Shown: positions 1 through 35,444 of the stretch, one piece after another
Layout of the letters: every line of letters begins with the position of its first letter
Numbering within the stretch: the first letter of the stretch is position 1
IMG/VR virus record: IMGVR_UViG_3300035670_000127
Location: 17,364 to 81,363 of that record
Strand: one strand, 5' to 3'
Source: a virus
DNA length: 64,000 nt
Notes under the pieces: generated by a model
What the model saw: the letters and a program-made list of their open reading frames with translations, nothing else
What the model was told of the DNA's origin: nothing
The model's database searches: none
Translations under genes and position numbers: made by a program

Positions 1-3000
1 CACCTACCACTGCAATAGCTGAATCCTGGACTACTGTGAATTGACTATAAAGAAACGAACCTATCTGCCAACCGACGAAAAATGCCGCTAGGCCACCTGC
101 GGCTGTGGATACAGCTGTGAATGCACCTCCTAGTGAGACGAGACCCATAGAGATTGCAGTGAATGCACCCATTCCTACAACCTCCAAATTTTCCATAGCT
201 AAAGCAAATCCATCTGTTAGAGGTTGCAGTAAGCCAAAAGAGGCTAACATCTCCTCAAAATCTCGTTTAAACTTCTCCTTGATTTTGCTTAAATCAAATG
301 CCGACTCTAGGTTAGCTTGGGTTTGTTGCGTTTGTGCGCTATTGTCAGGTAACATCCCCATTTCTGAAGCGGAGGCATCCTGACTTGAAAACATAGTGAG
401 ACCCACAGTGCCAGCCACCGCGGCTGTCATTATTGCGGACTTCTTGCCTAACATCCCACTTAATCTTGAACCCGTGGTCGCGGCGGCAACTTCCCCTTGA
501 GTGGTGAACCGTGCCCAGAAATTGGCAGTGTATGCAGAGGCGGCAGTGAACGCACGTCCTATGAAACCACTGACTGGGGCAATAGCAGGGGCGGCTAAAC
601 CTCTAAACCGTGCCCAGAAATTGACAGTCGATGCCGATGCAACCGTTAGACTTCGGTTAAGTAACCCAGTCGTCGTCGCTATTGCCGCAGTCCCCATGGT
701 TTTGAAACTCGCCCAAGTGTTTATCATTAGGCCGCTTCCGGCAACCCACATTCTATTCAATAATCCCACACCACCTGACGTAGCCGTCTTTAATTTGGTT
801 ACGAATGAGGAGAATAGGATTGTAGAATGGGCACTTCCTGCAATCCACATTCTTTGAATAAAACCAGTTGCTGAAGTGGTTGCTAACGCCGCTTGTTGAC
901 GGAATCGTGTCCATAGACTTTGGATATTAGGTGACAATCTTTGATAAGAGGCGGATAGATAGGTCGAGGTGGTTGTTATCGTTGCCAACGCTTTGGTTTT
1001 AAACCCCTGCCATAGAATCGAACCACCTACAGTTCCCACTACAAACATGCGTTGCAAAACCATTCCCGTGCTACGTGCGGCAACAGTGGCAGACTGGGTA
1101 AAGGACGCCCACAAAACAGGAATGCGGGTCATAGACGCATTCCAAAGGTTTAGCATAAACGGCTTAAACCCGGCGATTGCGGCTGTCCCCATGGCTTTGA
1201 ATTTTAGCCATGCGGTATTCCATAAATTGACAAACGTTGCACCCATAACAGTCATACTGCGTTGCAACATCTGTCCAACCCCTGCTAACGCCGCTTTTGC
1301 GCTGAGTTTAAAACTCTCCCAAAAACGAATTGGATAGGCACTCGCCACGACCCACATTCGTTGCATATAACCTTGCATTGCAACCACGGCACTGCTATTT
1401 TTGAATGCAGTCCAAACACGATTCATCTGTGTGGTCGCGAAGGTGCTAATTGCGGTCCATGCCCGTCGCCAAATTGAAACAGTTTCATCTGCCGAACGGC
1501 GGCCACCGCTTCTTTGTGGAGGCGGTGGCGGTGGTACCGGAGCTTGTTGCTGACTCTGTTGACCCATTGGCAACCCCTGCATCCCACCTCCTTTATTTTT
1601 GGTCATTGCTTTTTTAATAGAGGAGGTAATCGCAGAGGAGATTCCGTAACTTAATGCACCAGCAAAAACGGCCGCTAACGCCACAGCCGCTGGTTTTCCT
1701 AAGTCCTCTACTTTCTGAAGTGCCCATTCCAAACCACTGGTGATACCACCTCCTATGGATTGGCCAAAATCACCAAATAGAGATACCAAACCACGGGTGA
1801 TTAAATCACCAAGCGCACGGCCAATTTCACTGATGCCGTTTTGTTTTATGGTCTCAATAAACGCCTTAACCTCGTCCTTATAATTAGCTAATGCACCCAG
1901 TGCCGTTGGAATAAAACTTAATACCAGGGTCAAGGGATTCGTGGCCTTTAACAACAATGGAACTAACGTCATAAAAACAGGGACGAAAGCCGCTATACCT
2001 GCTATACTTGCAATAGCAATTTTTGACATGCTATCAAGGTCTTTCCACCATTTTATAATTCCGCTGATAGCATCTCCTATTTCAGTTTTAAAAGCCCAAA
2101 CCGCCTGGATTCCATTGTACAAAAGACCCCATGAGAATTTACCGCCCGCAATCAATGCTATGTTAATCAATTCGTTCCCTAGCGATTTGATTAACTTCAA
2201 TTGGTCTTTTGAGAAAATAGGGTCTTGTTCCATCACCAATTCTTGACTGGCTTTAGCAATCCCTTTCACCCCATTCTCTGCACCTACGGCATCTTCTTTT
2301 ATTAACCCAAAGGACTGCCCTAACGCAATGAAGGCACTGGCATTTATCGCCGTCGCTTTGATGACAGTGTCGGCTGTCATCTGCATAGAAATTCCTAAGC
2401 TCTCTATCTTTTTAGTGGTGAAGCTAATCGCAACCGGAATAGACTCCTTGAAGTAATTTATCACCACACTGAGCTTATCATGCACCATGAATGCAATCTG
2501 AGAGAAAATACCACCGATTACATCACTTACTTTATTAAAAGCGAAGCCGATTTTTTGGGCAATAGACATCCCTTGGGTCGCCTCTTGAAACCCAATGAAT
2601 ATTGACTTTACCTTGGTTTGCAATGCATTGATTCGTTCTAGGAAGGGGGCTATGATTGCGGCGTTAAACGATTTAGAAATAGTCGCCCAGTATAACGCTG
2701 TTACCTCCGCTGTCTCGTCCCAAAAATTACGCACTGCATAAGAAATTTTTGGCCATATACTTGCGAACTTAGATAAAACCGGGATGACCCGTGCTAAGTA
2801 TATTTCAGTGATAATTGCACCCACCGTAGTGAGGGATGCGAGTATTGACTGAGCTGATAAAATAACGAGATTACGAATGGATAAGAATGCCGTTGCAATC
2901 GCAACACGGGTTAGTTGAATAGCCGTTGCTAATCTTTGACTGTGAATCACCATGTTTGCTATCGCAATGATATACCCTTCCGCAAAAACTGACAGTGTGA

Positions 3001-5323
3001 CACCGGATAAACCAATTAGGAGACCTGAGATAACTACCTTTTGAGTGGTATCAAGTTGATTGAAAAAGTTTATGGCCGTGTCACTCCAAATCTTAATTTC
3101 ATTTAGGGAACGGTTTAGATTTTCTGTTACTGACACCTCTGCAAAAGTAGGGTGCCAATACTCACTCACTGATGCAAATAAGTCACGTACTACATTATTA
3201 AATTCTCTCCCCTGACTCCTTATCCCGGCAAGCATTGTTTCAATTAATGCCTCTCCACTTTCGTATAGAGTAGAAAACGGCCCCTCCTTTGCATTGGAAT
3301 GGGGAAAGAGATTTGCCACATAATTGAATATACTTAACACCGAGTCATAAATGTCTTTACCGGCTTGTGCAATCCCAGAGGCAAAAGTTGTCACCAGAGC
3401 GCGACCAGCGGAACTCATATCTATCATCATCAATGTGGATAGATTTTGTTCAATTTGGTCAAGAAAACTGAAATTCATTGCCAGGCTAAACTGCGCGGCA
3501 AGGTAGGCTACGCTTTGAATAAGAGAGTTTATTGAACTTACAGCTAAAAAGATAACGGGCGTGAATAGCTTTATTCCTTCAACTAGCGGCACGATTCCAA
3601 TGCTAACTACTTTTCCTAAAACAGTCCCCAATGCGTAGGCCGTTGCCCCAAATACCATGAGAGGCTCTGTCTCTCCAAATAATTTACTTAATTCATTTGA
3701 CAGTGGGGCGAAGGCTTCACTTAAAATTTTTATTGAAGGTGCAAGGGCATCAAACAAACCTTCAAATGCGAGTTGAATGGGTTCAATACCGGCTAAGAAT
3801 CCGTCTTTAAATGCAGTAATGACGGGGACGACTGACTGAATAACATCGACTATAGCTTGGATACTGGCAGTGCCTAATCGCACGATAGGGCGAAGAATAG
3901 GGACGACTATATCGAAAATGGATAATGCCATTTCCTCCATATTGCCAGTCAATTGATTCCAGTCTCCTTTGAGGTTGTCTAACATCTTTTTAGAGGCTCG
4001 GTCTGCAAACCCTGTGCTATCAGTCACGGTGGTTCTGAACTCCTTAAATTCTGTCGTCATAACCTTAACTGCTTTACCGCCTTGAATCACAGTTTTTTCA
4101 AATTCCTTTGACTTCTTAGCCAACTCCAACATAGCAGGCGTTGCTTCGACCCCAAATAGGGTTTTGAAGGTATCTAATTTGTCAGCATCCGTCATCTTTT
4201 CGGTGACTTTATTCAAATCTGCCATGATGTCGGCAAAATCACGAATTTTACCTTTACTGTCAGAAACCTTTAACCCTAAGCCACCTATAGTCTCCGCGGC
4301 TTTATCGGTCGGCCCAGCTAACCTTAACATGGCCATTCGTAAAGCTGTGCCACCTGTGGTGTCGCCAATAGCAACGTTAGCTAACATACTGGTTGCCGCA
4401 GTGAGGGTTTGAATGGATTGGTTAGCCGCGGCAAAAACGGGGGCACTGTATTTCATACTCTCCCCTAACTCACCCACACCCACATTACTTGCATTTGCCG
4501 CTTTAGCAAATAAGTCGGCAACCATAGTTGATTCTTTTGTTTCCAACCCAAATGCACGTAGCATTTTTGCCGCAATCTCACTTGACGTTGCCAAGTCCTC
4601 ACCGGATGCCGAGGCTAAGTTCAATACGCCCGGCAAAGCTGACATGGTTTCATTAACTGTAAATCCTGCCCGTGCTAAATTAAGTCCGGCATCTCCCACC
4701 TGCGTCGCACTGAAAACAGATGCCTTGGCTAGGTCGCGCATCCCCCCCCCTAGCATACTCAATTGCTGGTCGGTTGCGTCTGATACAGCCGCTATAGTGG
4801 ACATCCTAGATTCAAATTCAGAACCAATGACAACGACCTTTTTAAAAGGTTCTGCCATTTGGCTAACTGAATCGATAATATTTTTTATGCTAAAGGCGAA
4901 TTGGCCTATGGAATTAATAGAGTCCTTAAAACTCTCCTTAACCCCATTCGAAAAATCTTTGATTTTAGAATTTAAAGAAGTGAGAGGTTTTAAAGAATCA
5001 GTGGCAGAATCTTTAATGGCAGTAAAGCCACCTGCCACCTCTTTCAATTGCTTATTGACATCGGCCATTTTCTCCTTAGTTCCCGTAAGCAACCCGGACT
5101 GTTTCTTAATTTCTTCAGATGACTGTCTATTGGCATTAGCCACTTCTTTAGCATTAGCCACAGCCGCGTTAGAGGAGGCCGCGGCGATTTTCGCCATCTC
5201 CTTTAAATAGCCTGCTATTTCTTTTAAAGAATCGAGTAATTCGTTATTTGCTTTTGATACGTTGCCAGTGTCGGCCTGAAACTTAACACTGACTACCATT
5301 GTGCTATTGCTTGCCGTGCTCAT
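1..5323 (-). CDS. Tail tape measure protein (partial, runs off left edge)
   Basis: The minus strand reads open without a stop from an ATG at 5321-5323 to base 1, giving more than 1,770 residues; the C-terminus lies outside the window. The N-terminus is a coiled, polar segment. Residues of roughly 150-400 match the TP901/PhageMin tail tape measure core: an FESRMSTIAAVSDA-type start, repeated ALA/GLA helices, and a GGTALRMAMLRLAG stretch. Hydrophobic helices follow, then a W-x-x-F repeat array and another hydrophobic stretch near the window edge. Tape measure proteins set tail length and help eject DNA. The weak AGGTG Shine-Dalgarno lies 6 nt before the ATG. A run of nine C at 4742-4750 does not break the frame. 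The long plus-strand open frames across this gene are antisense shadows. Confidence 0.95.
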   Translation of the reverse strand, partial: MSTASNSTMVVSVKFQADTGNVSKANNELLDSLKEIAGYLKEMAKIAAASSNAAVANAKEVANANRQSSEEIKKQSGLLTGTKEKMADVNKQLKEVAGGFTAIKDSATDSLKPLTSLNSKIKDFSNGVKESFKDSINSIGQFAFSIKNIIDSVSQMAEPFKKVVVIGSEFESRMSTIAAVSDATDQQLSMLGGGMRDLAKASVFSATQVGDAGLNLARAGFTVNETMSALPGVLNLASASGEDLATSSEIAAKMLRAFGLETKESTMVADLFAKAANASNVGVGELGESMKYSAPVFAAANQSIQTLTAATSMLANVAIGDTTGGTALRMAMLRLAGPTDKAAETIGGLGLKVSDSKGKIRDFADIMADLNKVTEKMTDADKLDTFKTLFGVEATPAMLELAKKSKEFEKTVIQGGKAVKVMTTEFKEFRTTVTDSTGFADRASKKMLDNLKGDWNQLTGNMEEMALSIFDIVVPILRPIVRLGTASIQAIVDVIQSVVPVITAFKDGFLAGIEPIQLAFEGLFDALAPSIKILSEAFAPLSNELSKLFGETEPLMVFGATAYALGTVLGKVVSIGIVPLVEGIKLFTPVIFLAVSSINSLIQSVAYLAAQFSLAMNFSFLDQIEQNLSTLMMIDMSSAGRALVTTFASGIAQAGKDIYDSVLSIFNYVANLFPHSNAKEGPFSTLYESGEALIETMLAGIRSQGREFNNVVRDLFASVSEYWHPTFAEVSVTENLNRSLNEIKIWSDTAINFFNQLDTTQKVVISGLLIGLSGVTLSVFAEGYIIAIANMVIHSQRLATAIQLTRVAIATAFLSIRNLVILSAQSILASLTTVGAIITEIYLARVIPVLSKFASIWPKISYAVRNFWDETAEVTALYWATISKSFNAAIIAPFLERINALQTKVKSIFIGFQEATQGMSIAQKIGFAFNKVSDVIGGIFSQIAFMVHDKLSVVINYFKESIPVAISFTTKKIESLGISMQMTADTVIKATAINASAFIALGQSFGLIKEDAVGAENGVKGIAKASQELVMEQDPIFSKDQLKLIKSLGNELINIALIAGGKFSWGLLYNGIQAVWAFKTEIGDAISGIIKWWKDLDSMSKIAIASIAGIAAFVPVFMTLVPLLLKATNPLTLVLSFIPTALGALANYKDEVKAFIETIKQNGISEIGRALGDLITRGLVSLFGDFGQSIGGGITSGLEWALQKVEDLGKPAAVALAAVFAGALSYGISSAITSSIKKAMTKNKGGGMQGLPMGQQSQQQAPVPPPPPPQRSGGRRSADETVSIWRRAWTAISTFATTQMNRVWTAFKNSSAVVAMQGYMQRMWVVASAYPIRFWESFKLSAKAALAGVGQMLQRSMTVMGATFVNLWNTAWLKFKAMGTAAIAGFKPFMLNLWNASMTRIPVLWASFTQSATVAARSTGMVLQRMFVVGTVGGSILWQGFKTKALATITTTSTYLSASYQRLSPNIQSLWTRFRQQAALATTSATGFIQRMWIAGSAHSTILFSSFVTKLKTATSGGVGLLNRMWVAGSGLMINTWASFKTMGTAAIATTTGLLNRSLTVASASTVNFWARFRGLAAPAIAPVSGFIGRAFTAASAYTANFWARFTTQGEVAAATTGSRLSGMLGKKSAIMTAAVAGTVGLTMFSSQDASASEMGMLPDNSAQTQQTQANLESAFDLSKIKEKFKRDFEEMLASFGLLQPLTDGFALAMENLEVVGMGAFTAISMGLVSLGGAFTAVSTAAGGLAAFFVGWQIGSFLYSQFTVVQDSAIAVVG
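488..1480 (-). repeat. 33-residue W-x-x-F repeats in the tape measure gene
   Basis: About ten degenerate units with W (once F) at position 1 and F at position 4 lie in the tape measure protein. Repeat-start codons fall near 1418, 1319, 1208, 1109, 1010, 911, 812, 713, 614 and 515, so spacing is 99 bp (33 residues) with one 37-residue step. A further aromatic often sits at position 23. Since 33 is 3 x 11, this fits the 11-residue Trp/Phe periodicity known in siphovirus tape measures. Confidence 0.85.
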
Positions 5324-6236: not shown

Positions 6237-7642
6237 ATGAATCAAGAAACATTAGTATTTACCACCTCTCCTAAAAAAGAGGTTAAAGTTAATCGGCCGG
6301 CCGTGTATGAAGCGGGGCCGATAGGTGGAGTATTTCTACTTAACCATGATAAGTCACCATTGATACCAGTCACCAATGACAGGGCGCGGTGGCTGTTAGA
6401 TAACAAACAGGCCGCTGTTTATCGGCGCTATCCATTTACTCTCATACTGAATAAGAGTCACCAATCCCTTGAACAAGCGTACCCAATCGAGTTCAAAGTT
6501 GACCCAGGTAGCAAAACAACTGGATTGGCTTTGGTTGCCTACATCGATGGAAAATATACCGTCATTTGGGCGGCGAATCTAAGGCATAGAGGTGATATTA
6601 AAAGTGGACTGGAATCCCGTCTGTCAATTCGACGTGGGAGACGCAACCGACATACTCGTTATCGCCCGGCGCGGTTTATGAATAGGGTAGGTTCTAAAAA
6701 GGAGGGTTGGTTAGCACTGTCATTGTTATCAAGGGTGCGTAACGTAGCCAACTGGTTAACGAAGCTAAGAAAGTACGTCCCCATCACTAGCGTCGCAGTG
6801 GAATCTGTGCGATTCGATATGCAAAAACTACGCAACCCAGAGATTAACGGGGTTGGCTATCAACAAGGCGAGTTAATGGGGTACGAGGTACGAGAGTATC
6901 TACTTGAAAAGTTTAATCGCAAGTGTGCTTATTGTGGAAAGGATGGCGTCAAAGAGAAGGGCGTCAAATTACAGATAGAACACGTCACCCCAAGGTCAAG
7001 AGGAGGCGCAGACTCAGTTTCCAACCTCGTCATTGCGTGTCAAAAATGCAATCAGAAAAAGGGGTCGCAGTCCATTGAGGAGTTTTTAGCAAGCCGCACC
7101 GACGACCTTAAAAAAAAATCAAGACCCAGTTAAAGACACCTTTGAAAGACGCGGCGGCGGTAAATGCAACCCGTTATAAAATTTTAGAGGTGTTGAAACA
7201 AAGCGGCCTACCAGTGACAGACTGGACTGGGGTGCGGACGAAAATGAATCGCATTAAACAAGGCTACCCTAAAGACCATTGGATTGATGCCGTTTGTGTG
7301 GGTGAGACTGGGGAGGCTGTTAGCATCCCTGATTCTTTAAAACCATTGCAAATCAAGGCAATGGGGCGAGGCAATCGTTTAATGCAAAGCCATGATGCTT
7401 ACGGGTTTCCTAATAAGAAACCTAATAACAAAGCCAAGCGAGTGCATGGGATACAGACGGGGATATAGTGGAAGTGGAAGGGGTAACCGGACGAGTATCT
7501 GCTATTTCAGTCAACTCGCACTCTGTCAGCATCCCAGTCGATGGTAAACGTAAATCCTTCTCTCTTAGAAAAAGAGAGGCTAAAATTATACAACGGACTG
7601 ATGGGTATAAGTACGATAGAATTAAGCAAGTGCCCTTTTTGT
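6237..7642 (+). pseudogene. iscB: IscB-like RuvC/HNH nuclease, split by two -1 frameshifts
   Basis: IscB proteins are omega-RNA-guided DNA nucleases carried by IS200/IS605-type elements. The first frame holds the VFLL...RYPFT domain, RuvC-I (FKVDPGSKTTGLAL), the arginine-rich bridge (RRGRR), RuvC-II (SVAVESVRFD) and the HNH domain (CAYCGKDG...IEHVTPRSRGG...CQKCN). It stops early after a run of nine A (7110-7118). The family continues in the -1 frame (PLKDAAAVNATR, then RuvC-III HWIDAVCVG) to a stop at 7466-7468. A second -1 shift at GGGG (7459-7462) restores the usual C-terminus (DIVEV...IIQRTDGYKY) to 7642. All catalytic residues survive, but in three frames. A 29-residue N-terminal extension precedes the usual start. 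Confidence 0.85.
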
Positions 7643-7840
7643 AAAGAGGGCGTAATGACGAGGCGTGTTATATAGGGAACGCATACCTATAAAGGTCGCA
7701 GTATCACGGTGGATCAACCGGGTGAGTTTTGCAACCTTTGTGAAGAGGGTATTCTAAATGGTGATGATTTAAAATCCACCTCTGAAATTATTGTGGAGTT
7801 TCAGAGGGTAGTGGACGAGGGTAAAGCAACTTTAACTTGA
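7601..7840 (+). pseudogene. YgiT/MqsA-type zinc-finger antitoxin remnant
   Basis: The frame from ATG 7601 overlaps the end of the iscB-like gene. It reads a CPFCKEGVMTRR start, then an in-frame TAG at 7673-7675, then THTYKGRS...GEFCNLCEEGILNGDD to a TGA at 7838-7840. The two CxxC pairs and their spacing match the zinc-binding domain of MqsA/YgiT-type antitoxins of type II toxin-antitoxin systems. There is no HTH domain and I see no toxin gene beside it. With the nonsense codon it should not make full product. TAG is a normal stop elsewhere in the window, so readthrough is unlikely. Confidence 0.7.
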
Positions 7841-7891
7841 GTTAAGGAGGTGTAGTAATCAGCTAGTTATTGTCTATTTTTTAACCCAGTG

Positions 7892-7927
7892 CGGACGCCA
7901 TATTTAACTGCCCATGGCGTCCGTTTT
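7892..7927 (+). terminator. Intrinsic terminator after the IscB/YgiT block
   Basis: CGGACGCCAT (7892-7901) pairs with ATGGCGTCCG (7914-7923), followed by TTTT. Confidence 0.8.
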
Positions 7928-7946
7928 ATAGGTTAAGAAGTGCGTC

Positions 7947-7974
7947 CCTCAATTAGGATTCATGCGGGTTGAGG
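7947..7974 (+). repeat. Leader hairpin, copy 1
   Basis: CCTCAA (7947-7952) pairs with TTGAGG (7969-7974). The surrounding words (GGTTAAGAAGT, ATGCGGGTTGAGGAGGTG) recur ahead of the next gene at 8650-8700. It lies about 50 bp upstream of the HAD gene. Confidence 0.5.
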
Positions 7975-8026
7975 AGGTGGGAAGGAGGAGGGTTTGAGGG
8001 TTAAGAAGAATGAAAGGTAAGAAATT

Positions 8027-8647
8027 ATGAATGTAAAAAACTATGCAAGAATACTCTACTTTGGAAAGTATATATCTGTATTTTGCGATAGAGAGTGTCC
8101 ACCAGACGACCATACATTTGAAGGGCGAGATGGGCGACCTGAAACTCCAGACTCATTCCCGAACAAATGGTGTGTGAGACGGTGTGGGAAATGCGTTCTT
8201 TGCTATTTACATATCTTTGATGCGGATGGTACGTTACGCCGTGCGAAGTCAAATTCGTTTGCGCCGTCCAGTCCGGATGATTGGGAGCTTTTACCGGGGG
8301 TCAGGAAATGGTTTATAGATAATAAACCATTATGGGGGATTGCAAGCAATCAAGGAGGTGTTGCTTTTGGAAAGGTGAAGAGTGAATACGCTTATGAAGC
8401 ACTGCAAAGAACAGCAGCTTCATTAGGAGGGTTACCAAATGAGGCTATTCGTATGGAAACTTCCTTTGATAAAAGGAATCCACGACGCAAACCAAATCCA
8501 TGGATGTTGGTAGAGTTAATAGAACACTACAATATATCGTCCGAGAGGACATTGATGGTTGGTGATATGGAAAGTGATAAACAGGCGGCGGAAGCTGCTG
8601 GTTGTCATTACATTCATCCAAGAGATTTGTTTGGATGGGAAAATTGA
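8027..8647 (+). CDS. HAD-superfamily phosphatase (HisB/GmhB/PNKP-like)
   Basis: This 206-residue protein has the HAD motifs in order: DADGTL (motif I, near residue 65), SNQGG (motif II), KPNPWM (lysine of motif III) and VGDMESD (motif IV). The SNQ and KPNP forms resemble the histidinol-/heptose-bisphosphatase and polynucleotide 3'-phosphatase branch. The N-terminal 60 residues are Cys-rich (about six Cys between residues 19 and 64), possibly binding zinc, and are not part of the usual fold. DNA-end repair or nucleotide dephosphorylation are both possible, and I cannot pick the substrate. A weak GGTAAG ribosome-binding site precedes the ATG. Confidence 0.8.
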   Translation: MNVKNYARILYFGKYISVFCDRECPPDDHTFEGRDGRPETPDSFPNKWCVRRCGKCVLCYLHIFDADGTLRRAKSNSFAPSSPDDWELLPGVRKWFIDNKPLWGIASNQGGVAFGKVKSEYAYEALQRTAASLGGLPNEAIRMETSFDKRNPRRKPNPWMLVELIEHYNISSERTLMVGDMESDKQAAEAAGCHYIHPRDLFGWEN

Positions 8648-8659
8648 AAGTTAAGAAGT

Positions 8660-8696
8660 ACCTCCTCAAGCCTCTATTTATGCGGGTTGAGGAGGT
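8660..8696 (+). repeat. Leader hairpin, copy 2
   Basis: ACCTCCTCAA (8660-8669) pairs perfectly with TTGAGGAGGT (8687-8696), between the HAD gene and the next one. Flanking bases match copy 1 at about 7930-7980. The stem contains a GGAGG Shine-Dalgarno-like word that would be sequestered. Confidence 0.55.
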
Positions 8697-8736
8697 GAGA
8701 AGGGAGTTAATCTAAGCGTTATTTCAAAGGTGACAC

Positions 8737-9117
8737 ATGAATTTAAAATCGGAAAGAAAGAGGGTGAAAAAGTTAGATTTTCAAATAAATGAAAGAAGAA
8801 TGTTGGATGCTTACGAATTACATTTTAAATCATCTGGTTCTGACATATTCCTGTTTGATACACCTAGTAAAGAACTTGCATTCGCCGCTGAACTTATTGC
8901 AAACACCTATAGGGTTGGGGAAGGGAGGTATGAGGTCAGCGTAAATACTGACACAGACCGATACATAGTTTGCCCAAAGGAGTGGGTGAGTGAAGTCGAT
9001 GTGGTGGATGTTGATTCTCTTGAAAAAACGGGAACGGAAGCAATTCTGAAAGTTAAGGAGCACCTACCTAAAACGAAGATTAGAATTGATGAGAGAATGC
9101 GTATCATATTTTTTTAG
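8737..9117 (+). CDS. Hypothetical protein (126 aa)
   Basis: I do not recognise this protein. It is soluble and charged, with a Lys/Arg-rich start (ESERKRVKK-like) and alternating strand-like segments (YELHFKSSGSDIFLFD, RYEVSVNTDTDRYIV). An AAAGGTGAC ribosome-binding site precedes the ATG. It sits between the HAD phosphatase and the PIF1-like helicase operon, so a role in DNA metabolism is possible but unproven. Confidence 0.6.
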   Translation: MNLKSERKRVKKLDFQINERRMLDAYELHFKSSGSDIFLFDTPSKELAFAAELIANTYRVGEGRYEVSVNTDTDRYIVCPKEWVSEVDVVDVDSLEKTGTEAILKVKEHLPKTKIRIDERMRIIFF

Positions 9118-11586: not shown

Positions 11587-11970
11587 TTAGAACGGTATAA
11601 TATGGTTGTCTCGCACCTCTTCCATTTTGGAATGGAAGTGTTCCTTACACATTTCCCTTAACGCGGTGTCAATCTCCTCGTCAGTTTCAGCCTCGGCCTC
11701 CGCTACCCACTCCGGCGCGTCGTTTTGATACGCATGGTAAGTCAGGTCAATCGCTAGGAAGTAAAACCCGTCCCCTGCGAGTTTGCGCTTCTCGGTAAGC
11801 CAGTCACCCTCCTCTATACTCCAGTAGCCGCCGTGGTCGGGGTTATAAGTAAGGTAGCAAGGGGAGGATAGCGTTTGCAGAGGTTTCTTTTGAAACGCCT
11901 CAAATACCGATTCTAATGAATCACACCCCTGTTTATTGGCGGGGCATATACTGCATTTGTGGTCACACAT
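11587..11970 (-). CDS. Hypothetical protein with Cys-rich N-terminus (127 aa)
   Basis: The N-terminus MCDHKCSICPANKQGC has C-x3-C-x2-C plus a later Cys, a possible zinc or iron-sulfur site. The rest is acidic (AEAEAETDEEIDTALREM) with aromatic strands (GGYWSIEEGDW, GFYFLAIDLTYHAY). AAGAGGTTATAAATAAAA precedes the ATG. I do not recognise the family. It is 9 bp from the next small gene in the same direction. Confidence 0.6.
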   Translation of the reverse strand: MCDHKCSICPANKQGCDSLESVFEAFQKKPLQTLSSPCYLTYNPDHGGYWSIEEGDWLTEKRKLAGDGFYFLAIDLTYHAYQNDAPEWVAEAEAETDEEIDTALREMCKEHFHSKMEEVRDNHIIPF

Positions 11971-12789: not shown

Positions 12790-13065
12790 AAGTGCGTGTC
12801 TATGCAAAACTCGTTTTTGTATAGACTGTATAGACTCTGTCATCAACCCCTAGACGGTGAAAACCCGCGCCGTTATTGGCTTGTATGGACTGTATAGGGC
12901 CAACGGGTGTTTTTTCCATTTACTTATATATCCGGCGATATAAAATACTTTCTTCTATATTAATCATGTAATGTAGTGTATACACTCTATACAGTCCATA
13001 CAAGCCTTTAAATTCGTGCCTTCCCGTTGTATAGGGTTTAAACAGGTACTCTATACACCCTATAC
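12790..13065. repeat. Inverted-repeat/AT-rich element, copy A (candidate origin)
   Basis: A perfect 20-bp inverted repeat, GGCTTGTATGGACTGTATAG at 12878-12897 and its complement at 12988-13007, flanks 90 bp of AT-rich DNA containing TTATATATCC and GATATAAAA. Extra half-motifs (TGTATAGACTGTATAG near 12820, CTCTATACACCCTATACAGG near 13050) lie on both sides. The layout and flanks recur at 49.8-50.04 kb. It abuts the 3' end of the D5 helicase gene. The rest of the 12372-13112 gap holds no gene I can support. Origin function is an inference. Confidence 0.75.
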
Positions 13066-13112
13066 AGGTTTAAAGTAATGTTTTAAAGGGTTTGTTAATT
13101 GGTTTCTGTCTT

Positions 13113-14783
13113 TTATCCCTTCGCTTTCTCTTCTAAAATCCCCAGCCAATCCGTAGTCCAGTTCCTCTCGTTTTCCATCAAATCCTGACATATCACCCGT
13201 GCGACTTTAACCGGGTGCGTAGCCAGTAATTTAGCGACGTGGGATACCACTACCCCCTGCACCCCAGTGTGATATTCCATTGCCGTGCAAAGTTCCTCTG
13301 CCAGTTCTGCGATTGCCCCGTCAACTGATTCAGTCACCTCACTACCCAACCCTTCGTTTTTAAATGCGTACTCTACAATTGAGTTTTCAGTGCCCTCTAC
13401 TATCTTGAGTCCAATGAATCCCGACCTTGTCTTTTCGCCCGGCACCCTCATCTGCCTCTTTCTTTCTACACCGTCCACACCCAGAATGATGGTAATCACT
13501 TCCTCCAACTGAGTTGAAAAAGTATTGGTGCTAATCTGCCCCTTCCGCCCGTTTTGTTTGCACCAGCGAATGAAATTTGGATACAAATAGTTGTCTGCTA
13601 ACTCAAACATATTCTCCGTACTCACACCCAAAGCACCGACTTGCACTCTCACTTCAGGTGAAAACTCGACGTTTTGAGATAACCAAGCGATAAGTGGGTT
13701 GGTTTCGATCAGGGTTGCCATTTTGGCATCTTGGGAGGATTTCACTAGGTGGTCGGTATTGCGTAATAGGCTCTCCATTCGGCTAACATCCATCCCCAAT
13801 ACCCAGTTCAGCAAGCCAGGTATCTCACCCTCAAAATCCTCAGACAAATTACGCCGTTTTGAGGGGTGTACGACATGGTCAAGCCTCGCCGATATACGTC
13901 GCCGTGCAATTGCACTGGATGTATCTGAAAAATAAATGGGTGCATTGGCCGCGATAACAACCATGCCAGTGAATGTAAACGCCTCGTCCTGCTGTTTATT
14001 TTTCACCTCCTTTCGCAGCTTATCCTGCCCAGTGAGTGATTTAAAAATGGAACCCTCCCCACCGTATTTGGATGCGTCATTAATCAGAACCAGTCTCTTA
14101 CCTTGGATAGCCGCTGTCTCAAAACGGTTTTCTTCAAGGTATTTCATTGTGGTGATATAGTAATTGGGTTCGCCAATCATAGAGGTTAGCAATCGCGTTA
14201 ACGTCCCTTTCCCTGACCCGCCTGGACCTACGATTTCCATATACCGTTGCAAGTCATACCGCCCCAATAACACGGCCAGAAAGAAGGCACGAATCAACTC
14301 TATCAACTCCTTATCCCCTTTCGTTGCTTCGAGTAACCATTTATGAATGGTTGGGCACGTTGCATCCTTATTGAAATCGTAAGGCAACTGCCAGGTGATT
14401 CTATTCATAGGGTCGTGGGAGGGTGTAAATTCATGGGTGCGAATATTAAGAGTGCCATTAGGGAACGGTATGAGGTCAGGACATACTTCATTATCCCATT
14501 TATCAACGTAGAGGTCGCCCATCAGAAATTGGGTGACACCCTGTGCAAAATTAATACTAAAATCGGAGGTAAATCGTGAGTGGATAGCCTCCCGTATGAT
14601 TTGCTGAATGTGGACTTTTTTAGCCTTGGTCCAAACGGCGTCTTGATACATCCGCCATTCGCCGGTATCTGAATCAAACGCGAGTGTGGAGGCGAAAGAG
14701 GGCGCTAATTGTCTAGCTATTTCGTTTTGGCTAGGCTTTCTAGGAGAAGCGGCAGGTTTGCCATTTTGTGACTTTTTAGACAT
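13113..14783 (-). CDS. D5/P4-type superfamily 3 helicase
   Basis: This 556-residue protein has the D5_N-type lead-in (FPNGTLNIRTHEFTPSHDP, residues about 110-130) and an SF3 helicase core. Walker A is GPGGSGKGTLTRLL (near residue 190), Walker B-like is KRLVLINDAS, and sensor 1 is MVVIAANAP. The C-terminus has a winged-helix-like segment (FIRWCKQNGRKGQISTNTF). P4-family proteins often carry an N-terminal primase domain. Here it is missing, and a separate primase gene is at 58.6 kb. The protein is the likely replicative helicase and initiator. AAAGGGACAGTATT precedes the ATG. Confidence 0.92.
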   Translation of the reverse strand: MSKKSQNGKPAASPRKPSQNEIARQLAPSFASTLAFDSDTGEWRMYQDAVWTKAKKVHIQQIIREAIHSRFTSDFSINFAQGVTQFLMGDLYVDKWDNEVCPDLIPFPNGTLNIRTHEFTPSHDPMNRITWQLPYDFNKDATCPTIHKWLLEATKGDKELIELIRAFFLAVLLGRYDLQRYMEIVGPGGSGKGTLTRLLTSMIGEPNYYITTMKYLEENRFETAAIQGKRLVLINDASKYGGEGSIFKSLTGQDKLRKEVKNKQQDEAFTFTGMVVIAANAPIYFSDTSSAIARRRISARLDHVVHPSKRRNLSEDFEGEIPGLLNWVLGMDVSRMESLLRNTDHLVKSSQDAKMATLIETNPLIAWLSQNVEFSPEVRVQVGALGVSTENMFELADNYLYPNFIRWCKQNGRKGQISTNTFSTQLEEVITIILGVDGVERKRQMRVPGEKTRSGFIGLKIVEGTENSIVEYAFKNEGLGSEVTESVDGAIAELAEELCTAMEYHTGVQGVVVSHVAKLLATHPVKVARVICQDLMENERNWTTDWLGILEEKAKG

Positions 14784-23243: not shown

Positions 23244-23276
23244 AAAATCCTCTTTAAAATGAAACGGTTACGGGAG

Positions 23277-23434
23277 GTTGACACAAATTGCGTTAGTTTG
23301 TGTTCGGTTGACACAGGTTGACACAGTTTGACGCAATCTGCTATTATTTTACACAAGTTGATACAGTTTAACACAATTTGTGTCAACCTGTGTTAATTTA
23401 GCACAAATTGACGCAATCTGTGTCAACTTGTGTA
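23277..23434. repeat. Centromere-like (parC) repeat array 1
   Basis: Tightly packed 10-11 bp words of the type GTTGACACA, TTGACGCAA, TGTGTCAAC and GTTAACACA occur in both orientations over about 158 bp. The array lies just upstream of parM and between divergent genes. ParM-type partition loci have such arrays (parC), bound by ParR and holding the operon promoter. Promoter-like TTGACG/TGTAAA spaced 17 bp occurs at its right end. Confidence 0.8.
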
Positions 23435-23491
23435 AAGTATCGTATAAAAATTTTTACCTGTCAAGGTATATTAAAAAGAGGGTTTATAAAC

Positions 23492-28775: not shown

Positions 28776-28837
28776 GTAACACCTTGTTAATTTTTGAGGT
28801 AGCTGCCTCGTCAGCACCGGGAGTCAATTCTCGGTGG

Positions 28838-28858
28838 ACTCCCCAAACATCGGGGAGT
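28838..28858. other. GC-rich hairpin in the activator/accessory gap
   Basis: ACTCCCC (28838-28844) pairs with GGGGAGT (28852-28858), upstream of the 131-aa gene. A CGGCTA word follows it, as it does the hairpin repeats. From here to 29330 I see no gene. Confidence 0.5.
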
Positions 28859-29112
28859 TTCGGCTATTTATTTTGGGATGCAAGTTGAATTGCATCCGCT
28901 GGACTAACCCTATACCATTTGTTTGGGAAGTGTACCCACATCGGGGAATCCAATACTATTGCTACGAAGCGACTTAAAACAGCACAAATTCCATTCTCTC
29001 GGTTTATAAATCCTTATGCAGTCTCGCGACTCTATATCCATACACTTTACGCTTAACCGTGTCTCATCCGCGCTTCGCTGGCAATTGATAATTTTTTAGA
29101 TTGTTACTTCAG

Positions 29113-29579: not shown

Positions 29580-30938
29580 ATGAAAAAAGTAGCTAAGGTG
29601 CTGATTGTATCACCAAATCATCAGTTGTCATTACACATCGGGGGTGTGGTAAAAAGGTGTGGTTATAGCGCACGGGTTATCTCGTCCGCTTTTGATATGA
29701 ATGAATTGGATGAATACCAATTCGTTCTGGTTGACGAAGAATTTGTAGAGTTTGCAAGTGAGGGTTGGATTATCCTTTGCCGACAAGAAACCGCTGATTA
29801 TCACCGTCAAAACGGCCTTATTCCTATCGTTAAGCCGTGCCTGCCCCATGATATTTACCGGTGCTTAGGGGTGTCCCCACCTAGCTTGTTAGTGGGCAGT
29901 TCCGAAGCGATGGTGTTGCTTCGGAAAATGGTTAGCAGACTTGCACCCCACGGGTTGCCTATTTACATTCATGGTGAGACGGGCGTGGGTAAAGAAGTGG
30001 TTGCAATGGAATTGCACAACCTGTCAGGCCGTCAGGGGGAGTTGGTCGTGGTCAATTGCGCCGGCTTTAGCAATGAGCTGTTAGCAAGCGAGTTGTTTGG
30101 ACATGAAAAAGGCTCTTTCACGGGCGCGGATAAGGAGAAGAAGGGGTTATTTGAACTGGCGCACGGCGGAACTATCTTTTTAGATGAGATAGGTGATATG
30201 CCTCTCCAGTGCCAGGCGAAGTTATTGAGGGTTTTGGAAAATGGTACTTTCATGCGGGTGGGAGGGACTAAACAACTTTCCTCCAATGCCCGCGTGGTGT
30301 GCGCAACCCATTACTCGCTTCCTCAATTGGTTAAGGAGAAGCAATTTAGGGGTGACTTATACCAACGGTTAAACGGCTTTACGATTAACATACCACCTCT
30401 TAGGGAACGGCTAGGTGACGTGCCCGGACTGGTTCAGTCATTCCTGCCGGGCGTCGGCTTTACTGGGGAGGCAATGCAATACATGCAATCGCTTCGCTGG
30501 CCGGGCAATGTCAGGGAACTGAAACAGGTCTGCCAACGGATTGAGATTTTTAGGGATGGGGAGGTGACTAAGGGTGTGGTCAAGATGGTCACCGACATTG
30601 ACATCGTGGTTAATGATGCACTCCCACTACCTGAGTCCAAAGGAGGGGATCATCAAGAGATTATCGGTGCGTTAGCTAACCTCACTGCGACGCTATCTAG
30701 TATGCAAGCCGGCGGGGCAGTCAAGACAGTGGTGGCAGTTGAAAAAGAAGAGAGGTCGGTTAATAATGGTGTGGTGTTGAGATTTAACGGTGTACCCACT
30801 CGAAACGACGTAATGAGGGCTTACTTCAAGGAGGTTTACGACCTTTGCGGGGGTAACATGAAACGAGTGGCAGAGGCAATGGGTATCTCTCGCACCACGT
30901 TGTACACAATGAGAAGCGAGTTAGAGTTAGAGGAATAA
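29580..30938 (+). CDS. Sigma54-dependent enhancer-binding activator (NtrC-like)
   Basis: The 452-residue protein has a receiver-like N-terminus (KVLIVSPNHQ..., residues 1-95, with VLVDEEF and IVKPC but few acidic-pocket residues). An AAA+ domain follows: Walker A GETGVGKE, GSFTGA (the sigma54-contact loop, normally GAFTGA), Walker B GGTIFLDEIGDM, and RLRWPGNVRELK-type sensor. The C-terminus is a Fis-type helix-turn-helix (CGGNMKRVAEAMGISRTTLYTM). Such proteins open promoters bound by sigma54 RNA polymerase. Finding one in a phage is unusual. Its likely operators are the palindromes upstream. Confidence 0.93.
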   Translation: MKKVAKVLIVSPNHQLSLHIGGVVKRCGYSARVISSAFDMNELDEYQFVLVDEEFVEFASEGWIILCRQETADYHRQNGLIPIVKPCLPHDIYRCLGVSPPSLLVGSSEAMVLLRKMVSRLAPHGLPIYIHGETGVGKEVVAMELHNLSGRQGELVVVNCAGFSNELLASELFGHEKGSFTGADKEKKGLFELAHGGTIFLDEIGDMPLQCQAKLLRVLENGTFMRVGGTKQLSSNARVVCATHYSLPQLVKEKQFRGDLYQRLNGFTINIPPLRERLGDVPGLVQSFLPGVGFTGEAMQYMQSLRWPGNVRELKQVCQRIEIFRDGEVTKGVVKMVTDIDIVVNDALPLPESKGGDHQEIIGALANLTATLSSMQAGGAVKTVVAVEKEERSVNNGVVLRFNGVPTRNDVMRAYFKEVYDLCGGNMKRVAEAMGISRTTLYTMRSELELEE

Positions 30939-30942
30939 AGGT

Positions 30943-31452
30943 ATGACTACCACAGAAAGAAGTAAGGGATTGATAGAAAGGGAGATGTTGAAGTTCCTTA
31001 GAAAACATCCACAGGCCGAGCTATTTTCAAGGGAGGCTATACTGGGTGAAGTTTTCACAAAAGGGGAATCTAACCTGTTAACACGGGTGCTAAAAAAGCA
31101 TGGGTTCTATCCAATCAATTCACCGCAAGGGAGGCTTTGGAGCCGCAAGCCGCGTGGTGAAAAGTGGATTAACCCAAGGAGGGCGGTTTTAGAGGCGGTA
31201 TTGGATTTATATCTAAGAAGCGAGAACCCAGAGGAGGTCACGACTCAAGAGTTCCTAACCCGCTTTTTACCCGATGCCGTGGCAACCCGGATGTCTGATA
31301 AACACCTCCTTGCAAGGATTTTGGAGAGTAAGGGATGGGCTAGGAAAAGTGAGGCTATGCCGCTTCTGAGAGGCACTCGAACGGCAATGGCTAGGGTGTG
31401 GATTAAACCTAAACCAAGACCCAAAAGACAGGAGGTTAAACCAGTAGAATAA
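30943..31452 (+). CDS. Hypothetical basic protein, possible winged-helix pair
   Basis: The 169-residue protein has two similar helical blocks: IEREMLKFLRKHPQ...ILGEVFTKGESNLLTRVLKKHGFYP and VLEAVLDLYLRSEN...MSDKHLLARILESKGWARK. Each ends near an aromatic/basic turn. The tail is Lys/Pro-rich. The internal repeat suggests two DNA-binding modules. It begins 4 bp after the activator gene, so co-expression is likely. The family is unrecognised. Confidence 0.6.
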   Translation: MTTTERSKGLIEREMLKFLRKHPQAELFSREAILGEVFTKGESNLLTRVLKKHGFYPINSPQGRLWSRKPRGEKWINPRRAVLEAVLDLYLRSENPEEVTTQEFLTRFLPDAVATRMSDKHLLARILESKGWARKSEAMPLLRGTRTAMARVWIKPKPRPKRQEVKPVE

Positions 31453-31458
31453 GTGAGA

Positions 31459-31488
31459 GGCCGTCAGCTAAATTGACGGCCATTTTTT
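31459..31488 (+). terminator. Intrinsic terminator of the activator operon
   Basis: GGCCGTCA (31459-31466) pairs with TGACGGCC (31474-31481), followed by a T6 tract. It also touches the stop of the convergent head gene. Confidence 0.88.
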
Positions 31489-32338
31489 ATTGCCCAGAGG
31501 CGGTGGCAAAATCGGCTTTGACAGTGGGTTGTATATAAGCTGGTAGGGTACTCACTCTGCTTTGTATTGCCTCGTTTGCTACTTGAGTGCCTCCCAGTCC
31601 CTTCGCATAGTTGAACCCAGGGGAAGTGCCGACTGGAATAGATTCTGTTTTGCCAGTGTGGGGATTGGTATGGGTATAAGTGTCCTTCATACTCACTTGT
31701 TTAGTCTCCCCATTTTTCCCCTTGTAGGTCATCTTATCGTTATCCGGGTCGAATGGGGTTAAGCCGTGCCTTTCCATTTGAGAGACTGAAAAACTCCTTA
31801 ATTCGCAACGGCAACGGTGGTGAAAAGGCGGACCCCCGCGACTACCCCATTGCTGAATAGTCATACTCACACCTCCCATCATTGCACAATTGCCACATGT
31901 CCTTGCGCCGCCAGCCGTCATTAGGCTGGCATAAGGGCGAGTGTCAGCCGTCTCCCGCATACGTTGCATAATCCCTGCATTTAACGCGGTGTGTAAATTC
32001 GTCTCATAAACCACCTCTGCGCGGCGTGCGATTCCCTCGCGGGGTTGGAATCCAGTTTTCTCTGCAATGGCCTTAAAATCGCGTTTAAAGTCGGCTAACG
32101 TGCCTCCGTTAGTCAACACGTTGTTTAGACTTTCGTGTACTTGTGTAATCGCGTCGGCACGTACCATTCCGGTTACATAAAAAGTTGTTTCTTGCAAGGC
32201 CGCTGCTACCTGCCCACGCATTTCAACTGGAATATCTAGTTTATTATTCAGTGTGTCAATCGCCTCGGTAAACTGCACCGTTTGCCAATCAAAATTACTG
32301 CCAGTGGATTGGGTTAAATTAGTTTCGTTAGGGTTCAT
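31487..32338 (-). CDS. Mu gpF/SPP1 gp7-like minor head protein
   Basis: The 283-residue protein carries the head-morphogenesis signature: Cys pair RTCGNCAMMGGV, then a GPPFHHRCRCELR motif (residues about 145-180), as in phage Mu gpF and SPP1 gp7. The N-terminal helical region holds FDWQTVQFTEAIDTLNNKL. These minor head proteins are ejected or bind the portal during assembly. The gene follows the portal gene on the same strand, with the repeat region between. Confidence 0.88.
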   Translation of the reverse strand: MNPNETNLTQSTGSNFDWQTVQFTEAIDTLNNKLDIPVEMRGQVAAALQETTFYVTGMVRADAITQVHESLNNVLTNGGTLADFKRDFKAIAEKTGFQPREGIARRAEVVYETNLHTALNAGIMQRMRETADTRPYASLMTAGGARTCGNCAMMGGVSMTIQQWGSRGGPPFHHRCRCELRSFSVSQMERHGLTPFDPDNDKMTYKGKNGETKQVSMKDTYTHTNPHTGKTESIPVGTSPGFNYAKGLGGTQVANEAIQSRVSTLPAYIQPTVKADFATASGQ

Positions 32339-32399
32339 TTAAGTCACCTAGAGGGTTTGGTTAATTGATTGCTTGTCTTTGGGTAGAATACCCCTTTAG

Positions 32400-32780
32400 A
32401 AAATCTGTATAGACTGTATGCAGTCGGTTAATCGAACCCCATACACGGAACCCTGCATATCTACAAGCCCCTATCCGTGCGGGTTTCCACCGTATAGGGT
32501 TCGATAATGGAGTGCATACGGTCCTATACAAATTCACTTTTGTATTGGCCAACCCCATACTGGCAGTTTCATAAGAAACCTAGCAACGGCGCGGTGTTTA
32601 GTTAAATTAACCTCGCTGTCAGTGCGTATAGGGTTGTATGCCGTAGTGGGTCTGTATAGACTGAAAACAGGATTTTACCGAATCCTAGAGTGCCCTGTTT
32701 ATGCGGGTCTAGGGGATTCGATAATTGCGTTTAAAGACCCTATTTTTACCAAACCCTATACAAGTCTATACAGTCTATAC
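32400..32780. repeat. TGTATAGACTGTATAG repeat region, copy C (diverged)
   Basis: Between the portal and minor head genes lie words shared with the elements at 12.8 and 49.8 kb: CTGTATAGACTGTATGC (near 32407), GTATAGGGTTCGATAATGG, TGTATAGACTGAAAAC (near 32650), and CTATACAAGTCTATACAGTC near 32757-32778. The long inverted repeat is degraded here. No gene is supported in this 436-bp gap. Confidence 0.65.
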
Positions 32781-34589
32781 ACTCACATCCGCCCATTGTT
32801 TTTCCTTTTCGTACCCCAATAGCCATGCCAAAACCATCGATTCAGTCAAGGCGGTTTGCGCCTCTTTACGTGGGAGTTGATAGAATCGGATTAACTGAGT
32901 TTGTAGGTCGGCGACCGAGTCGGCTTTTTCAACTATGTCCACTAATCGTTCTAAGTCTTTAGCTAAGAAACGGCTGTAGCTTTTTGCCGACCTTAGTTTG
33001 ATAATATCCAGTGGGTCATTAGGGGATAAGGTACTCACCCAATCTCTATTCCCGGCACTGTATTCATGACCACATTCACCGCATTGGCAACCCTCCCCAT
33101 GGTATGCTGAAAACGCCACCGTGTCTCGATGTTCAAGGTCGTCAGGAAGTGCGAGACCATCTTCAATTTGTCTCTCTTCTTGAGGTAGGTCGGCCTCTAC
33201 CACATCTTGAACCGTTGGTTCATTGCTATCTGATTCACTGCCAACCTGAGAGGATTCAGTCACCACCTGAGTCGCTTCCTCTAGCGAATCCCATTCACCC
33301 TCATACCCAGGTAAAATCGCCTCACCTTTGGTTGCTAATTCTACTTGCAATCTATCGCTTACAAATTGCAATGGTAAGGGTAGGTACTTACGGATAATAT
33401 CAAAACTCTCAGCCGCGGTCTTTTTAGCCTCACTTTCCTCGTAAAACTCAAAATAAGGAGATCTAACCTTCTCTCCAAAGTTAAACCGCGTGACTAAGAA
33501 AAAGAGGTGATTCATAGTGGAGGCTATCATCTTACGATGCGCCTCGGTGACCATCCCTTCGGATTCCAAATGAGTAGCGGCGGCGGCCCGTGAGCCTTGG
33601 TCTGTGATTTCAACTCCTAAAGTAGAGGATAGAATCGCTTTGGATAACTCACTATTCACTAGGTCAATAAAGCCACTGTGAATCATTTTCTCACTCGTCT
33701 TAGCCTCCATAAATTCGACGGCGACGTTATCCGGGACGGCGGCGCAAGCCGAATCTAACATGTTGCTTAACTGATTCAGAATGGTATCAATTGCCTCCGC
33801 TTTGGTGCCGGGTGGGTATTTACCAATTGCCCATGGACTGCCATGCCGTTCGATAAATTTGACATAATACTCCATCACCATGCGCTTGAAATTCACTAGC
33901 CAATAGCAGGAGGATAGAGCGGCAAAACCGTAGGGATTATCCACTGTCGCACGGTGGCGAGTAAGGAGGTAATTATTGGGGTGCAAGGGTTCACCTAAGA
34001 AGTTCCCACGAGTCCTGACCAAAGGGAGGCCGTAAGGTGTGAATAACACCCGTCGCCTGGGCACGTCAATCAATTCGATAGGTAACAGATACTTGCCTTT
34101 GTAATCCCAAACAATCTCCTTTAAATCAAAACCATAAAGGACGCATTCATAAACCTTAAAATAGAAGTCATCCCAGCTAAAGTTAGGGGAGGGTGGCGTA
34201 TCCAAAATCTTTTCACACAATGCCGCGGCCAGCTTATCTACTTTACGCAACCCGCCCGGCTGTACGTGCGTCTCAAAACGTACTAAACCGGCATACATTC
34301 TTTGGATAATGCCAGCGACATGCGCATCCTCTGCCAACCTCTCATACACGGGCACGGTCTGGGCGTACCCTAGCCTAGCCAACGTTGGGTCGGGGTTAAG
34401 GACGTAAGGGAGAGCGTGAATGAAGTCAGGGTCGTTGTCGACGCTAGTGACTCGTTGCCCGGTCATCTCCCCAGTTGTATTCTCTTCCCCTTGTTGATAG
34501 GTTGGGATAGATAACGTTGGAAACGGCGCACTGAATTGATAGGCTTTTATTAACGAATCGTAAAGACTGGGTCGGTTAATGCTTTTCAT
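32775..34589 (-). CDS. Portal protein, Mu gp29-like (DUF935)
   Basis: The 604-residue protein fits the DUF935 portal family of Mu-like phages. It has NPDPTLARLGYA, YERLAEDAHVAGIIQRM, FYFKVYECVLYGFDLKEIVW, LTRHRATVDNPYGFA, VNFKRMVMEYYVKFIERHGSPWAIGKYP and VEITDQGSRAAAATHLE in the usual order. The long C-terminal extension (residues about 420-604) is acidic, with CQCGECGHEY, a possible zinc motif. The portal forms the dodecameric DNA entry ring. Confidence 0.93.
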   Translation of the reverse strand: MKSINRPSLYDSLIKAYQFSAPFPTLSIPTYQQGEENTTGEMTGQRVTSVDNDPDFIHALPYVLNPDPTLARLGYAQTVPVYERLAEDAHVAGIIQRMYAGLVRFETHVQPGGLRKVDKLAAALCEKILDTPPSPNFSWDDFYFKVYECVLYGFDLKEIVWDYKGKYLLPIELIDVPRRRVLFTPYGLPLVRTRGNFLGEPLHPNNYLLTRHRATVDNPYGFAALSSCYWLVNFKRMVMEYYVKFIERHGSPWAIGKYPPGTKAEAIDTILNQLSNMLDSACAAVPDNVAVEFMEAKTSEKMIHSGFIDLVNSELSKAILSSTLGVEITDQGSRAAAATHLESEGMVTEAHRKMIASTMNHLFFLVTRFNFGEKVRSPYFEFYEESEAKKTAAESFDIIRKYLPLPLQFVSDRLQVELATKGEAILPGYEGEWDSLEEATQVVTESSQVGSESDSNEPTVQDVVEADLPQEERQIEDGLALPDDLEHRDTVAFSAYHGEGCQCGECGHEYSAGNRDWVSTLSPNDPLDIIKLRSAKSYSRFLAKDLERLVDIVEKADSVADLQTQLIRFYQLPRKEAQTALTESMVLAWLLGYEKEKQWADVSV

Positions 34590-34591
34590 AT

Positions 34592-34936
34592 TTAGGTTAC
34601 CTCTTTAGGTACGCTTCGCTTCAGCTCCCCATTGGCTTGCATGTACTCAACTAAGAGGTTCACGGCGGTACTCAATACACCGTCTTTTAGAGTGTACACG
34701 TTAGACAGTAGCTGGTGTTGCATGTCATCAATTCGCCGCATAACATACTTCTTTTTTTCTGCGCTACTGATGTCCAAACGAGCCGCCTCCCTAATCAGTT
34801 CATAGATAAGGGATTGTATGTCAGGGGTAATCAGTTTGTTGATAAGCAACCAAAGGAGGTCGGTATCATTTTGTGCATTAACCAACCCCTTTAACCACAC
34901 CCATATCAACTTCAAATAATAGCTAAGAGTCTGCAT
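34592..34936 (-). CDS. Hypothetical small helical protein (114 aa)
   Basis: I choose the ATG at 34936, behind GAGGAGAAGCAAA. It has a membrane-proximal hydrophobic start (YYLKLIWVWLKGLVNAQ), then helices (LIYELIREAARLDISSAEKKKYVMRRIDDM). It starts inside the 3' end of the upstream gene and stops 2 bp before the portal start. The function is unknown. Confidence 0.6.
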   Translation of the reverse strand: MQTLSYYLKLIWVWLKGLVNAQNDTDLLWLLINKLITPDIQSLIYELIREAARLDISSAEKKKYVMRRIDDMQHQLLSNVYTLKDGVLSTAVNLLVEYMQANGELKRSVPKEVT

Positions 34937-35444
34937 TTTGCTTCTCCTCTTTGAATTTACATTTCGCACATTTGCACTTACGGCACTTAGATTGATGCCA
35001 GTTACTTTGGGTATATAATCGTCCCTTTAGAATCCGTGTAATAATCCCTTCCTTGCTATGGGGGTCGGTGGACTCATAAAAATTCAGTTCTAAATTGACT
35101 TGGAAAATGAGGTATAGTAACACGATGCCCTGGATACTCTCCAATAGAGTCCACAATACATCAAGCGTATCACCAATTAACCCGCCGCTACCTTGCAACA
35201 CCCAGCTCGTTTCTAGGAGGGCATACATGATAGTATAGAAAATGATAAGCACCACCCCGCGTCCCCGTTCCTGTTTGGTGATAGCGGGATTCTCCCACTT
35301 CTTTCTATTCATACGATACAGCGTGTAGATTCCAAAAGAAGCGGTGATTAGAAACAGTATGATGTTCCCTACCCCATTAGGGAATGCGAATAATAGCACT
35401 CCAATGGCAATTAAAAAATAGAGCGTCTGCCAATTAATATTCAT
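34923..35444 (-). CDS. Multi-pass membrane protein with Cys/Lys-rich tail
   Basis: The 173-residue product has four hydrophobic segments (LYFLIAIGVLLFAFPN, IILFLITASFGIYTL, VVLIIFYTIMYALLE, IQGIVLLYLIFQV). Its C-terminal tail has many Cys and Lys (CRKCKCAKCKFKEEKQ). It overlaps the upstream membrane gene by 4 bp, so the two are coupled. A lysis or envelope role is possible. Confidence 0.65.
   Translation of the reverse strand: MNINWQTLYFLIAIGVLLFAFPNGVGNIILFLITASFGIYTLYRMNRKKWENPAITKQERGRGVVLIIFYTIMYALLETSWVLQGSGGLIGDTLDVLWTLLESIQGIVLLYLIFQVNLELNFYESTDPHSKEGIITRILKGRLYTQSNWHQSKCRKCKCAKCKFKEEKQNADS

Follow-up and report, generated by a model that had tools for sequence, protein, structure and literature searches.

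Genomic setting

The DNA described here derives from an 81,363-bp virus record, and the analysis was centred on its 64-kb window, meaning the whole 64,000-nucleotide stretch to which positions refer unless another sequence is named; the records used are metagenomic. The phage encodes its own portal, capsid and terminase together with a giant ORF, and it also carries Mu-like head genes and a ParM-like gene. The giant ORF (7052 aa) occupies positions 1-5323 of the window, where it is cut through by the window edge, and 1528-22686 of the record on the minus strand. The gene for an SF3 helicase of 556 aa, a P4-family primase C-terminal protein, is located on the minus strand at 13113-14783, and the sliding clamp gene dnaN, with three DNA_pol3_beta domains, is on the plus strand at 50478-51632. 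Two copies of a palindromic, AT-rich element are found beside these genes, one (E1) directly behind the helicase gene and the other (E2) between dnaN and an operon for nucleotide reduction (nrd) and thymidylate synthesis.

Anatomy of the elements

E1 (12818-13066) is an 80-nt imperfect palindrome (12818-12897 against 12987-13066, 70% complementary) that lies 47 bp from the helicase stop codon. Its outer left iterons, TGTATAGAC TGTATAG, extend from 12818 to 12833 on the plus strand and were read from the sequence and by heptamer count. The inner left arm, an exact match to GGCTTGTATGGACTGTATAG (12878-12897, plus), contains TGTATGGAC TGTATAG at 12882 and is followed by the AT-rich centre, 89 bp in length (12898-12986), which is the proposed melting site on the basis of its AT content and conserved spacing. 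To the right of the centre the inner arm is GGCTTGTATGGACTGTATAG inverted, again exact (12987-13006, minus), with CTATACAGT CCATACA at 12987, and the outer right iterons (TGTATAG, then CTATACA CC CTATACA), identified in the same way as those on the left, occupy 13028-13066, with CTATACACC CTATACA at 13051. The best 60-bp window of the centre is 77% AT against a genome mean of 54%, a value reached by 0.4% of genome windows. A preliminary description had noted a perfect 20-bp inverted repeat around some 90 bp of AT-rich DNA, and the repeat is indeed exact, with 89 nt between its arms. The same description placed this copy beside the SF3 helicase gene; the adjacency holds, but E1 is at the 3′ end of the gene and not upstream of it.

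E2 (49789-50063) repeats the layout 37 kb away, as had been claimed. Motif searching located an inner left arm with one mismatch to GGCTTGTATGGACTGTATAG (49869-49888, plus) and an exact inner right arm (49983-50002, minus), separated by a 94-bp centre (49889-49982) recognized by its AT content. The palindrome is shorter but better matched than that of E1 (49850-49891 against 49980-50021, 42 nt, 86% complementary), and the best 60-bp window of its centre reaches 80% AT, equalled by 0.2% of genome windows. The position beside the clamp gene is also borne out, as E2 lies between a divergent thymidylate synthase and ribonucleotide reductase (RNR) operon that starts at 49763 on the minus strand and dnaN, which starts at 50478 on the plus strand; further TGTATAG heptamers, found by heptamer search, are scattered between E2 and dnaN (50266-50370). 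The first gene of the operon, identified by domain matches, encodes a thymidylate synthase with DUF4346 (48324-49763, minus), and the same operon includes an adenosylcobalamin-dependent RNR (45979-47985, minus; TIGR02505, 4.5e-98, 329 bits against a cut-off of 340). In the thymidylate synthase the DUF4346 domain is C-terminal and pterin-binding, and the closest model is the methanogen-type TIGR03283, matched below its cut-off.

The unit of the arms, overlooked in the preliminary description, is the heptamer CTATACA/TGTATAG, arranged in tandem at a spacing of about 9 bp (iteron TGTATAGac). This heptamer occurs 30 times in the window against 7.6 expected, and 23 of the 30 occurrences fall within E1, E2 and a third copy, E3. 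At up to three mismatches, GGCTTGTATGGACTGTATAG itself has four matches in the window against 0.01 expected from shuffles, and none of 100 shuffles reaches four. E3 (32379-32785, minus), also overlooked earlier, is a degenerate copy that lacks the AT-rich centre and resembles an inverted E2: positions 32379-32444 are 79% complementary to 50025-50090 of E2, and 32462-32488 are 100% complementary to 49850-49876. It is located between the portal and gpF-like genes, where the gap in a related phage of 83,384 bp (G002) is just 17 bp, so that E3 is inserted at this place in the phage of the window.

Counterparts in related phages

Neither the exact motif of the window nor its helicase sequence on its own retrieved any viral contig. 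Relatives were recovered by a terminase search followed by alignments of terminase, capsid, clamp and helicase, and these yielded G002 and several fragments, including L150, L016 and L018. Most genes are common to G002 and the phage of the window, with protein identities of 86% for the capsid protein, 54% for the helicase and 50% for the clamp. Terminase relatives in bacterial genomes are 30-46% identical, too distant to point to a host. The head-gene block at 29580-44271 (capsid, portal, gpF and a sigma-54 activator) has opposite orientations, with respect to the genes around it, in G002 and in the phage of the window, and the relative of the giant ORF in G002 encodes 7676 aa (56275-79305).

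G002 contains three copies of an element of about 257 bp, 75-82% identical to each other in local alignments. One (gC, 6785-7047) lies 55 bp from the stop of the helicase gene (7102-8763, minus), another (gA, 36827-37081) in the gap that separates dnaN from the nrd operon, and the third (gB, 79360-79615) upstream of the 7676-aa ORF, where a divergent gene also adjoins. In L150 the copy (11641-11935) directly follows the helicase stop at 11634, while in L016 it lies at approximately 2875-3060, between an RNR gene (696-2675, minus) and a plus-strand operon with dnaN; L018, grouped with G002, has the element between nrd and dnaN as well. A pattern scan for contigs with the right arm of the G002 type returned only G002, L018 and L150. 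In three phages (window, G002 and L150) no more than about 60 bp separates the element from the stop of the orthologous helicase gene, and three (window, G002/L018 and L016) have it in the interval that divides nrd from the dnaN operon; its retention near both genes in related genomes, proposed earlier as a check, is confirmed on small numbers, namely three to four phages among the collections searched.

What is conserved is the layout. The iteron sequence has changed between phages, from TGTATAGAC in the window to GTATAGGTC in G002 and L150, and the centres themselves have diverged, yet the inner arms of seven copies are separated by 89, 94, 84, 85, 85, 85 and 84 bp, where the arm edges were set by eye from aligned iterons and single values could shift by one iteron. 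Copies within one genome (64% identity between E1 and E2, 66-75% among the G002 copies) resemble each other more closely than do elements at corresponding positions in the window and G002 (47% for E1 and gC, 54% for E2 and gA). The copies behind the helicase gene in G002 and L150 are about 73-75% identical, and these two phages are themselves close. Likeness within a genome would fit a single DNA-binding protein per phage that reads all copies, or gene conversion between copies. Copy number and some of the positions vary, with E3 found only in the phage of the window and gB only in G002. What is observed directly is how the element is built, that it is repeated, that it is conserved at both positions and that copies in one genome resemble one another.

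Outside this group, LR797314, which gives the best helicase match among annotated sequences, carries five repeats of the TGTGCTGTT type no further than 125 bp from its helicase stop (28948), and other clusters of this unit occur near 22.8, 27.4 and 31.2 kb. Synechococcus phage S-EIV1, a helicase relative, was considered and rejected as a carrier of the same element, as it has one inverted repeat, located past the glycosyltransferase gene that follows the primase, and no second copy.

The helicase as a candidate initiator

The helicase matches D5_N (7.5e-17) and, above the cut-off of 108.7 bits, TIGR01613, the model for P4-family primase C-terminal proteins (3.2e-41, 141 bits). It also matches a solved primase-helicase, PDB 7ola (2.5e-20), which we take to be SaPI5 Rep. 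A weak Pox_D5 match at the C-terminus (residues 395-432) scores 19.3 bits against a cut-off of 21.4, with 2.1e-5 for the best member. The protein matches only D5_N and helicase profiles, with no fused primase (Toprim) domain, and a DnaG-like primase is encoded by a separate gene at 58586-59590. A structure model built from three sequences had a mean pLDDT of 36.5 and was unusable. In its C-terminal part the helicase of G002 is 81% similar to that of L150 and 60% to that of the window; iteron similarity among the three phages follows that of the C-terminal regions, although the protein as a whole shows this trend too.

Comparison with known origins

Origins of phage-inducible chromosomal islands (PICIs) are located immediately 3′ of the initiator gene and consist of two iteron sets around an AT-rich region (PMC6092414). 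The Rep protein of the SaPIs and Cch2 of SCCmec, the latter a D5_N/Primase_Cterm protein, recognize iterons directly downstream of their own gene by means of a C-terminal domain (PMC7581432). SaPI5 Rep and SCCmec Cch2 belong to the same Primase_Cterm/D5_N group as the helicase of the window, and a placement immediately 3′ of the helicase gene is seen for E1 and for the corresponding elements of G002 and L150, but not for E2. The differences are that the replicon here is not a small island but a phage of about 81 kb, whose head genes are Mu-like and which has a ParM-like gene, that its iterons form long palindromic arms, and that a further copy of the module sits close to dnaN and nrd.

Phage P4 and its alpha protein provide a second likeness, given that the helicase here is also of the P4 family. 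P4 has two cis-acting repeat regions, one of which is beside the alpha gene, and the sequence of its iterons differs from that of the window. In the window the second site is 37 kb away beside nrd and dnaN and, unlike in P4, the helicase has no primase domain fused to it. The P4 repeats are bound by a winged-helix domain of the helicase protein (PMC4234260). In plasmid pRN1 the origin is a stem-loop of about 100 bp (21-nt stem and 58-nt loop at 75 °C), 54 bp downstream of the SF3 replication gene (PMC4234260). E1 resembles the origin of pRN1 and the one proposed for phage BIP-1 (PMC4234260) in having an inverted repeat with a large loop, of about 100 bp in those systems, that lies downstream of an SF3 replication gene at a distance of some 50 bp. 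Iterons are absent from pRN1, which depends on an intact stem-loop; the arms of the window elements, by contrast, are built of iterons, and pairing inside a copy is not preferentially maintained.

A probable replication origin and its possible mechanism

E1 is probably a replication origin read by the D5/P4-type SF3 helicase of the phage, with E2 a second copy of the module. This reading is favoured because E1, like its counterparts, lies near the helicase stop, because there is published precedent for such a position, and because LR797314 also carries repeats behind its helicase gene. The preliminary description had left the choice between replication origins and a shared control site. This pair of readings is partly borne out by the conserved positions, and the layout agrees with that of published origins; GC skew is uninformative, as it follows the gene strand and shows no origin-like switch at E1 or E2.

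From the sequences and the systems compared above we infer that the iterons are bound by the helicase, that melting takes place in the centre and that the element is where replication begins. In E1 and E2 clusters of iterons spaced at about 9 bp, in opposite orientations, flank the AT-rich centre (84-94 bp across the copies), and the helicase would bind these iterons through its C-terminal domain. Assembled on both sides, it would melt the centre and be loaded for bidirectional replication, after which the separate DnaG-like primase, the clamp and SSB would join. As E2 has the arms and AT-rich centre of E1, the same protein is predicted to bind it, and E2 would probably add a second initiation site or a helper site like crr of P4. 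Through E2 the initiator may also control the divergent nrd and dnaN operons, a transcriptional role that is possible because E2 sits in a divergent promoter region. E2 may thus be a second origin, a crr-like helper site or an operator acting on nrd and dnaN, three candidate roles with which its sequence is compatible.

Alternative readings

The elements could instead be operators, bound by a repressor or activator of the phage other than the helicase, that govern a number of operons and chiefly the divergent pair of nrd and dnaN. The copies E2, gA and that of L016 are in divergent intergenic regions, gB is upstream of the giant ORF and of a divergent gene, and the copies have the same iterons in common, all of which would suit a regulator. 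This is nonetheless unlikely, as E1, gC and the L150 copy adjoin the helicase stop with the next gene start hundreds of bp off, and it is unusual for an operator to have long palindromic sets of iterons held apart by a fixed AT-rich spacer of 84-94 bp. Sigma-70-like promoters, moreover, show no enrichment, with 1 in each of the two element regions where 2.9 and 1.5 are expected, and a sigma-70 promoter cluster was rejected on this ground.

Spread of a non-coding, MITE-like mobile repeat without function would account for the variable copy number and for positions seen in one phage only, as with E3 and gB. Diverged phages, however, keep the element at two positions, its spacing is under constraint, the copies within a genome are alike, and no transposase gene adjoins any copy in the sequences examined, so that this origin of the repeats is very improbable.

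Selection for a structured RNA or for hairpin pairing is suggested by single-strand DNA folding, in which most copies surpass shuffled sequences (z of -5.7 for E1 and -6.9 for E2), but folding is weak for the copies of L150 and L016 (z of -1.8 and -1.6) and no Rfam match is found at the elements. When left arms are compared with right arms, those of a single copy score no higher (mean 26.7) than those taken from different copies of one genome (mean 27.1), which indicates that hairpin pairing is not the selected feature and makes this explanation scarcely tenable. Equally implausible is that the elements are enhancer sites for the sigma-54 activator of the phage, for although such activators bind inverted repeats and the gene is intact, with a Fis-type HTH (29580-30938, plus; Sigma54_activat, 7.9e-62), and conserved in G002 (47% identical), none of the -24/-12-like sites, of which there are 12 in the phage of the window and 5 in G002, lies within an element.

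Implications and further observations

Full-size tailed phages are here seen to carry, in multiple copies, a layout that had been regarded as peculiar to phage-inducible islands (PMC6092414). If E1 is an origin, iterons around an AT-rich centre of about 85 bp directly behind a D5/P4-type helicase gene could serve as a rule for finding origins in uncultured phages. A broader proposal, put forward tentatively, is that a lineage of large phage-plasmid-like phages may carry multiple origin modules for an initiator helicase, evolving in concert at the helicase gene and at nrd/dnaN, such that one protein would couple origin firing to the supply of clamp and nucleotides; damaged copies such as E3 would then reflect movement or copying of the module within genomes. 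The question raised is whether extra copies of an origin tie replication to nucleotide and clamp supply.

Other repeats and genes of the window deserve mention. Two arrays of TTGACACAAATTGCGT-like iterons (23265-23440 and 59930-60121) probably represent a centromere, which is also duplicated; the first is just upstream of the ParM-like gene (23408) and a small partner gene, and G002 has a repeat array at the place of the second. As these arrays differ in sequence from the elements, a ParC centromere was rejected as an identity for the latter. An IscB-like protein with RuvC-like and HNH motifs, judged from sequence only, is encoded at 6237-7133 on the plus strand, and shortly past its gene there is a gap of about 560 bp without long ORFs (7469-8026). 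Finally, an intergenic type II hammerhead ribozyme (Rfam RF02276, 48.6 bits against a gathering threshold of 37) is present at 28797-28865 on the minus strand, and short repeats, GTGTTACTCTAAARTCACC, occur near it at 28016, 28331 and 29112.
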